This document shows, piece by piece, positions 35,643 to 37,561 of a stretch of DNA of 64,000 nt (the first letter of the stretch is position 1; every line of letters starts with the position of its first letter). The notes under the pieces are model-generated. The model did no database searches. It worked only from the letters and a program-made list of their open reading frames with translations, and was not told where the DNA came from. Source of the DNA: Halopiger xanaduensis SH-6 (lineage in GTDB: Archaea; Halobacteriota; Halobacteria; Halobacteriales; Natrialbaceae); the NCBI RefSeq assembly GCF_000217715.1, contig NC_015666.1, positions 508,270 through 572,269 of the forward strand. The letters are read 5' to 3'. A program made the position numbers and the translations under genes.

Positions 35643-35885
35643 TCAGTTCAGTCGCGCCTGCACTTCCACGAGCAGTTTCTGATAGCCGAGCCCGTAGACG
35701 CCGGCGTAGATCATCACGGCGCCGATGGCGGCGAGCCAGAGGGCGACGGTCTGGTCGCCGGCGCCGAGGTGTTGCGTGCTCGCGTACTCGGCGGCGATGC
35801 CGCCGATCGTGAGCGCGCTGGCGGCGATCGCGTAGAAGACGACCGACAGCGATTCGATGACGAGTTCCGGGTCGAGCGACGTCAT
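35643..35885 (-). CDS. Small two-helix membrane protein
   Basis: An 80-residue protein with two membrane helices (about 11-32 and 45-66) and a conserved-looking MIYAGVYGLGYQKLLVEVQARLN end, with a single small Gly/Ala linker. I recognise it only as a typical short haloarchaeal membrane protein. The ATG at 35885 is preferred to upstream codons, which are Pro/Ser-rich shadow sequence. It is divergent from the uracil-DNA glycosylase gene, so it may share its promoter region. Confidence 0.75.
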   Translation of the reverse strand: MTSLDPELVIESLSVVFYAIAASALTIGGIAAEYASTQHLGAGDQTVALWLAAIGAVMIYAGVYGLGYQKLLVEVQARLN

Positions 35886-35997
35886 TACCGCTGAAATGCC
35901 GCTGGGAGACCGTAAACTTGTCCCATCGTGTCCGCGCGAAGACACACACACACTCCAACCCGGGCAACCTAAACCCGCTGAGCACCGAAACGCGGGC

Positions 35998-36759
35998 GTG
36001 TCCCCACCGAACGCTTCGTCTCCGTCCGACTCGAGTGCCGACGCGGCCGCGGATGCAAGTGCAAATGCGGACTCGAGCACCGCCGCCGATTCGGATGCGA
36101 GCTCGAGTTCACCCGCCGACCCGCCGTTCCCCCAATCCCGCAACGTCATCGAACCCGACTGCGCGCGCTGTCCCGCGCTCGCCGAAACCCGCGAGTGTAT
36201 CTCGTGGGGGACCGGCCCCCTCGACGCGAGCGTTATCGTCGTCGGGGAGGCGCCGGGGCCCGGCAACCCGGACGCCGACCGCTGGAAGGGCGGCAACTGG
36301 ACCGGCAAGGGCTACACCTCGCGCCACTCCGGCCGGCGCATCCGGCGCATGCTGGCCCAGGTCGGCTACGACGAGACGGCCTACTACACTAACGCCGTCA
36401 AGTGCTTCCCCGCCGACCCCGAGGACCCCTCGAGCAACCGCGAACCGACGCCCGAGGAGCGGGCGAACTGCCGGCCCCACCTGCTGACAGAACTCGAGAC
36501 TATCGATCCGACGGTCGTCCTCGCGACCGGCAAGCACGCGACGAAGACGGTGCTGGCGGCCGAAGGGAAGGAACTGGACGGATTCATCGACTGCGTGCTC
36601 GAGCCGGTCCGCTGCGAGGCGTTGGACGTCTGGCTCGTGCCGATCCTTCACCCCTCGTACCAGGACGTCTGGATCGGCCGGCTCGGCTACGAGCCCGACG
36701 AGTACCTCGCGGCGATTCGGGAGACGCTCGAGGACGTAATCGACGGCGCGGCGCAGTAG
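35998..36759 (+). CDS. Uracil-DNA glycosylase (family 4/5, Fe-S type)
   Basis: A base-excision repair enzyme with the family-4/5 signature. The Fe-S cysteines are CARCPAL and TRECISW, followed by VVGEAPGPGNPDADR (motif I), TNAVKCFP and the His motif LHPSYQDVW (about 213-221). The start is uncertain: GTG at 35998 lies about 25 bases after AACCTAAACC, while ATG at 35896 would add 34 residues. The Ser/Asp/Ala leader (about 40 residues) is low-complexity either way. It protects DNA against cytosine deamination. Confidence 0.92.
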   Translation: MSPPNASSPSDSSADAAADASANADSSTAADSDASSSSPADPPFPQSRNVIEPDCARCPALAETRECISWGTGPLDASVIVVGEAPGPGNPDADRWKGGNWTGKGYTSRHSGRRIRRMLAQVGYDETAYYTNAVKCFPADPEDPSSNREPTPEERANCRPHLLTELETIDPTVVLATGKHATKTVLAAEGKELDGFIDCVLEPVRCEALDVWLVPILHPSYQDVWIGRLGYEPDEYLAAIRETLEDVIDGAAQ

Positions 36760-36992
36760 TGTAGCGTCGCGGCGCCTAGCAGTCACTACACGGAAGCGGC
36801 GAGTTCACGCGGAAAGAAATCGAGGAGTCGAACCGTTGCGGTGGCGGCGGTTTCGGTGGTGAAGGTGGTGGGTGATCGTGTGGTCCGGGTGTGTCAATGC
36901 GTGAGGGTGGTCCCCCGCCAGCGCGACGATGCCCACGCGGGGCAGTTCGTCTCGAGGAACGGGGTGATAATGAAGACGGTGACGGTACACGC

Positions 36993-37018
36993 TAATTCCG
37001 GACAGTTTACCGGAATTA
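36993..37018. promoter_or_regulatory. Perfect inverted repeat, possible operator or hairpin
   Basis: TAATTCCGG (36993-37001) pairs with CCGGAATTA (37010-37018), nine bases each with an eight-base loop that contains GTTTA. The symmetry is exact. It may be a regulator site or an RNA hairpin. Confidence 0.6.
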
Positions 37019-37034
37019 TCGCGAATAGATGATC

Positions 37035-37050
37035 GTTTACCGCGGTAAAC
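37035..37050. promoter_or_regulatory. Perfect 16-base palindrome GTTTACCGCGGTAAAC
   Basis: Positions 37035-37050 read identically on both strands. Part of it (CGGTAAACTGT, 37043-37053) also inverts ACAGTTTACCG at 37002-37012, 30 bases away. The shared half-site GTTTACCG occurs at 37006-37013, at 37035-37042 and inverted at 37043-37050. This is the architecture of a dimeric regulator binding cooperatively. It lies about 90 bases upstream of the HIT start and directly upstream of the His-rich frame on the minus strand. Confidence 0.65.
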
Positions 37051-37111
37051 TGTCAGTCGGACCGACCGGTTCGGCGGTCACGCGTGGGCTTCAGCATCGG
37101 ACCGAGTAACC

Positions 37112-37119
37112 TTCTTACG
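37112..37119 (+). promoter_or_regulatory. TATA-like box of the HIT gene
   Basis: TTCTTACG lies 23-30 bases before the ATG at 37142. Confidence 0.4.
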
Positions 37120-37141
37120 CCGAGCCGACACATACTCGCGT

Positions 37142-37561
37142 ATGAGCACGATCTTCAGCCAGATCGTCGAGGGGGAGATCCCCGCTCGAGTCGTGTACGA
37201 AGACGAGACCACGCTGGCCTTTCTCGACGCCAATCCGCTGGCGCCGGGCCACACCCTCGTCATCCCCAAGGACGAGTACGAGCGGCTGAACGACGTCCCG
37301 GAGGACGTCGCGACGGACCTCTACGACACGATCCACCGGATGGTCCCGGCCGTCGAGGAGGCCGTCGACGCCGACGCGACGACGGTCGCCTTCAATAACG
37401 GCGAGGCCGCCGGCCAGGAAGTGCCCCACGTCCACTGCCACATCGTCCCCCGCTTCGAGGGCGACGGCGGCGGCCCCATCCACGCCGTCGCGGGCAGCCG
37501 GCCCGACCTGGACGACGACGAACTCGACGACATCGCCGAGGATATCGAGTCTCGAGCCTGA
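37142..37561 (+). CDS. HIT-family nucleotide hydrolase or transferase
   Basis: A 139-residue HINT/HIT-family protein. The catalytic HVHCHIVPR (about 99-107) matches HxHxHxx, and the family start FSQIVEGEIPARVVYEDE is present. Such proteins hydrolyse AMP-linked substrates (adenosine phosphoramidates). The acidic tail is short. It has its own promoter, and the upstream palindrome cluster could regulate it. Confidence 0.93.
   Translation: MSTIFSQIVEGEIPARVVYEDETTLAFLDANPLAPGHTLVIPKDEYERLNDVPEDVATDLYDTIHRMVPAVEEAVDADATTVAFNNGEAAGQEVPHVHCHIVPRFEGDGGGPIHAVAGSRPDLDDDELDDIAEDIESRA

Follow-up and report, generated by a model that had tools for sequence, protein, structure and literature searches.

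In Haloferax volcanii, 145 intergenic small RNAs (sRNAs) were reported at first and about 540 later, and the promoter motifs given for haloarchaea are TTWT and CGAAA (BRE) (PMC4983044). The TATA-like box of the predicted units described here is instead TTCAATA. In other respects the locus resembles these sRNA genes, in that it comprises a short predicted intergenic transcript with its own TATA-like promoter and a U-rich end. Unlike a single orphan RNA, however, the unit predicted from this sequence shares an upstream motif and a 5' hairpin with paralogues.

Haloarchaeal transcription factors, including TrmB, DtxR/IdeR-like and similar regulators, use dyad operators. The site found in the window (the whole 64,000-nucleotide stretch of Halopiger xanaduensis SH-6 DNA that was analyzed) is likewise dyad-symmetric, is situated at a predicted promoter and contains repeated half-sites. 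To our knowledge, its dyad matches none of the operator patterns of TrmB or DtxR/IdeR-like factors.

Results

The first-pass annotation of this DNA described three inverted repeats upstream of a HIT-domain gene, and all three proved exact at the positions given. The first pairs TAATTCCGG (36993 to 37001) with CCGGAATTA (37010 to 37018) as 9-bp arms around an 8-nt loop. The second is a perfect 16-bp palindrome, GTTTACCGCGGTAAAC (37035 to 37050). The third is a long-range repeat in which ACAGTTTACCG (37002 to 37012) pairs with CGGTAAACTGT (37043 to 37053) over 11 bp, and which can be extended to 12 bp (37001 to 37012 with 37043 to 37054). The half-site that was said to occur three times, GTTTACCG, was confirmed at 37005 to 37012 and 37035 to 37042 on the plus strand and at 37043 to 37050 on the minus strand.

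The density of symmetry had been called unlike that of normal spacers, which was borne out for the three features jointly but not for the 16-bp palindrome by itself. A single perfect 16-bp palindrome is ordinary in this GC-rich window, which contains 8 of them, whereas order-1 Markov shuffles averaged 4.2. The three features together arose in 0.015% of 20,000 simulations of the 382-bp spacer at matched composition, a figure that is indicative only, as the features were picked post hoc. The genome-wide search that had been proposed for the palindrome recovered the 16-mer once, with no exact second site in the 4.36-Mb genome; allowing up to 2 mismatches yielded two more sites, both with 2 mismatches. 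The spacer is retained in the sister species, but the palindrome position reads GTTTACCGGGATAAAC and only 6 of the 8 pairs form; elsewhere among the relatives compared, the palindrome was absent. A mobile element or repeat family was considered and rejected, as the genome contains no second copy of the region.

The first inverted repeat corresponds to an apparently ancestral upstream motif, AATTCCGGTAAACTGTCCGGAATT (36994 to 37017, minus strand), with the dyad AATTCCGG/CCGGAATT. This 24-bp motif is 90 to 95% identical in the sister genome and is also kept in further genera and at unrelated loci, although its dyad symmetry is strongest in the genome studied here and weaker in others. Conservation across genera refutes chance symmetry as the origin of 36994 to 37017. 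The concern, raised with the original claim, that the palindromes occur only here and are not conserved in relatives thus applies to the 16-bp palindrome but not to this motif.

Reading along the minus strand, the motif is followed by a conserved box, GTACCGTCACC (36978 to 36988; consensus GNACNRTCRCY; alignments A2, A3 and A8), and, ~18 nt from the motif, by a putative TATA-like box, TTCATTA (36968 to 36974), which is TTCAATA in most relatives and keeps a fixed spacing to the motif in the alignments. A GCCC-loop-GGGC hairpin follows after a further ~26 nt. Alignment of the clear matches on this strand gave the same succession of ATAATTCCGGTAAACNATCNGNAAYT, the GNACNRTCRCY box and TTCAATA/TTCATTA. 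The intergenic region therefore contains a conserved promoter of its own, as judged from the motif and TATA-like module with their fixed spacing.

Several searches located this module elsewhere. By BLAST, the 65-bp stretch from 36960 to 37024 was matched at an unrelated Natronococcus locus, and shorter pieces were matched at other places. A search with the motif pattern returned 27 matches against 5 with a reversed-pattern control, an enrichment in which not all matches are real. With a sequence model of the module (R1), a single strong copy was detected in the genome studied here, together with strong matches in several other genera. The module occurs both at HIT loci and at loci without HIT, with the same spacing to the TATA-like box on its own strand. 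Compared with the sister genome, identity is ~0.9 over 36882 to 37041 versus 0.5 to 0.8 across most of the other spacer outside the HIT core promoter, and another 20-bp block near the U-run (36802 to 36821) also reaches 0.9. Since the 4-fold sites of HIT are 86% identical in the sister, a spacer identity of 90% indicates only modest constraint.

The remaining symmetry is made of further copies of the motif core. A second copy, CGGTAAACGATC (37031 to 37042, minus strand), lies 30 bp upstream of the first and supplies the left half of the palindrome. It is identical in the sister genome, where R1 gives 14.1 bits over an overlapping stretch, and is absent from the HIT upstream regions read in G020 and G132. 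A third, inverted copy, CGGTAAACTGTC (37043 to 37054, plus strand), supplies the right half of the palindrome and one arm of the long-range repeat, and reads GGATAAACTGTC in the sister genome. The 16-bp palindrome is thus composed of the second and the inverted third copies of the core CGGTAAAC, and the 11/12-bp long-range repeat is the first copy paired with the third. Because the palindrome is imperfect in the sister species and has no second exact copy in the genome, we read it as a lineage-specific addition and a local embellishment, and the extra core copies would fit auxiliary operators that this lineage has gained. At the equivalent place, other repeats, such as AAACTGG.GTAAAGTC, were observed in the g5 and g28 lineages.

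Beyond the promoter module, the parts are arranged as in a short transcription unit. A small RNA of ~139 nt is predicted from 36951 to 36813 on the minus strand, with its ends placed by the TATA-like box and the U-run. It would begin with a 5' hairpin, GACGA-AC-UGCCC-CGCGU-GGGCA-UCGUC (36925 to 36951, minus strand), whose conserved GCCC/GGGC core is represented in models R2 and R3. The stretch CTCACGCATTGACACACC (36888 to 36905, minus strand), common to G001, G020 and G132, marks the start of a CA/ACC-rich tail, and a U-rich putative terminator, CGATTTCTTTCC (36811 to 36822, minus strand), has counterparts in the T-runs that follow the tail in most relatives. Across the HIT loci, the middle part between the hairpin and a UCACG...GACACACC/ACC-rich tail varies, and most genomes have a T-run after the tail. 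Within the tail, the sister genome spacer (L005/L039) shows a ~19-nt GGTGT tandem expansion relative to 36870 to 36885 of the window.

The window RNA folded no more stably than its shuffles (z -0.38). No covariation was found in the hairpin, in which the GCCC/GGGC stem is invariant and the outer pairs performed no better than shuffles, and RNAalifold gave no structure on the mixed subfamilies, whose tails do not align. Neither the window stretch nor nine related loci matched Rfam at the gathering score, and a literature search found no description of the RNA unit.

The predicted RNA is flanked by a convergent gene of the uracil-DNA glycosylase superfamily (35857 to 36759, plus strand; Pfam PF03167, E 6e-21) and by the divergent HIT-domain gene (37142 to 37561, plus strand; Pfam PF01230, E 2.4e-30). 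The latter has a conserved core promoter and leader of its own (GAGTAACCTTCTTACG...; 37104 to 37141, plus strand), which occupies the last 40 bp before the HIT start codon across the family, is 95 to 100% identical in the sister and lies ~50 bp from the palindromes. HIT upstream regions of 109 family genomes were read on both strands, and one more (G021) was reached through the R3 search. The unit was present at 21 of these 110 loci, a count that combines model matches with two cases read by eye (G032 and G138), and in every case it lay on the strand divergent from HIT. The 21 genomes belong to 7 genera: g1 (2), g5 (6), g19 (1), g20 (2), g21 (2), g28 (6) and g29 (2). The module mostly started 105 to 122 bp from the HIT start codon, with distances of ~65 to 172 bp in G032, G138, G133 and G029. 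HIT promoters do not generally carry the motif, as the unit is absent from most of the 110 loci.

Copies away from HIT were sought with models of the promoter plus hairpin, first R2 and then R3. The genome studied here contains one R3 copy (E 8e-17). Non-HIT copies numbered several per genome in Natronococcus (g3; G125, G130 and others), a genus of the same archaeal family. Two other genera also had such copies, with three in G002 and one in G008. Six copies of this set were used to train R3, so their R3 scores are not independent; paralogues outside the training set scored 59 to 79 bits in Natronococcus and G002 (e.g., three more in G125, five in G130, G129, and one in G002). Except for the set from Natronococcus, G002 and G008, weak R2 matches of ~20 to 27 bits across the order were rejected as noise, since those read lay mostly in coding-like DNA and owed their scores to GCCC/GGGC. 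In many paralogues the loop of this hairpin is of the GNRA type (GCAA, GAAA), and in one Natronococcus group an extended structure was more stable than shuffles (z -3.07). This subgroup (L305-L308, L316 and L317) has a long predicted stem, GGUGCAA...UUGCACC, that encloses UCAGCUGAAGG...CCUUCGCUGA. In one Natronococcus genome (L309; G130:C1:1978859 and 1979250), two predicted RNA units stand in tandem ~400 bp apart.

In Natronococcus, the module also precedes genes for small CxxC zinc-ribbon proteins; motif, spacing and TATA-like box are the same there, and in several species the leader contains GACACACC. These genes encode proteins of 55 to 62 aa, whereas the window unit is without such a gene. 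The dyad-symmetric motif thus recurs in this genus at both paralogous RNA units and zinc-ribbon promoters; outside Natronococcus, the module was absent before the CxxC zinc-ribbon genes in the members checked. The CxxC family itself (MTxxNREKRAAVCxxC...; L131-L160) consists of proteins of ~50 to 60 aa, of which a single genome in this archaeal family can have as many as 14 copies. Some copies contain in-frame stops, and no Pfam match exceeded the cut-off.

Discussion

The conserved module was observed in constant order, spacing and orientation in several genomic contexts, and the unit that follows it carries frame-breaking indels. It is well supported that the cluster is one of regulatory sites. 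We think it rather probable, from sequence comparison, that it forms the upstream control region of an unannotated minus-strand small non-coding RNA gene divergent from HIT. The first-pass annotation had proposed a dimeric regulator bound at adjacent sites; the conserved motif supports the regulatory cluster, but the perfect palindrome is not conserved. It had also named two possible targets, the HIT gene and a small minus-strand frame rich in His. Of these, the minus strand is the better candidate, because both the place and the direction of the conserved element are constant with respect to the minus-strand promoter, although the His-rich frame as such is shifted in the sister. Since the two promoters are divergent, HIT may also be controlled through the shared region.

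From this arrangement we infer a transcript and its ends, a binding protein and a pairing mechanism. A dimeric DNA-binding protein would bind the dyad at 36994 to 37017, ~18 bp upstream of the TATA-like box, and this upstream position makes an activator probable. The extra CGGTAAAC copies, one direct and one inverted, 30 to 40 bp further upstream could serve the same protein as auxiliary sites. The RNA would present the GCCC/GGGC hairpin first, followed by the CA/ACC-rich tail and an end at the U-run, and its ACC-rich tail may base-pair with G/U-rich stretches of mRNAs.

The minus-strand unit could instead be the gene of a small His-rich protein, with the motif as its promoter element. A 61-aa His-rich frame is open at 36805 to 36990 on the minus strand, several relatives have His/Thr-rich frames that result from the CAC/ACC-rich sequence, and the same promoter drives the 55- to 62-aa CxxC proteins of Natronococcus. 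However, a 1-nt deletion and a ~19-nt insertion break the frame in the sister genome, 1-nt indels distinguish the unit of G028 from those of G073-G075, T-runs fall inside the reading frames, and no Pfam domain was found. We consider a protein gene very unlikely, and the His-rich frame is very probably not translated into a protein; given the frame-breaking indels in close relatives and the lack of a Pfam domain, a small RNA is the most likely product. It is also quite improbable that the unit is merely a relic by decay, in which the promoter and leader outlasted a lost small zinc-ribbon gene and no longer have a function. The use of the same promoter before Natronococcus zinc-ribbon genes, some with in-frame stops, and the patchy presence among HIT loci are consistent with decay, but conservation in the sister species exceeds that of most flanking spacer DNA, module and hairpin are retained at HIT in 7 genera, and Natronococcus itself has non-coding, hairpin-bearing paralogues.

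Two further explanations concern the palindromes themselves. They may constitute a HIT operator, at which a dimeric regulator would act 90 to 150 bp upstream of the start codon, perhaps together with the divergent transcript. Retention of the divergent arrangement in 7 genera and the short distance, only ~50 bp, from the sites to the HIT core promoter downstream of them agree with this, but the module also occurs at non-HIT loci with constant spacing to the TATA-like box of its own strand, and before most HIT orthologues the HIT core promoter stands without the motif, which leaves such an operator unlikely. Functionless chance symmetry in a GC-rich spacer is very improbable: 16-bp palindromes are common in the window (8 versus 4.2 expected) and the 16-mer is unique and not conserved, yet other genera also keep the first dyad, and the three features together are unlikely in simulations.

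If the preferred reading, a small RNA gene with its upstream control region, is taken further, the unit may represent a new small-RNA family of this haloarchaeal family that is multi-copy in Natronococcus. Its dedicated module (the dyad plus a TTCAATA core, with no obvious CGAAA BRE) would also drive the CxxC genes, forming an sRNA/mini-protein regulon under one regulator or a specific TBP/TFB pair; we offer this wider proposal tentatively, as a possibility somewhat short of even. What was noted as an isolated palindrome can now be tested as a transcription unit that several haloarchaeal genera retain and that is without an Rfam family or a description found in the literature. With the upstream element and its spacing defined and several paralogues located, the regulator and the RNA can be sought directly.

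Beside the 3' end of the HIT gene, an inverted-repeat element of ~80 bp, CATACGG..TGCTGT...(T)CACCGG...ACAGCAA.CCGTAT, was observed in two other genera (G006 and G027; L019 and L026). This element resembles a dispersed palindromic repeat.
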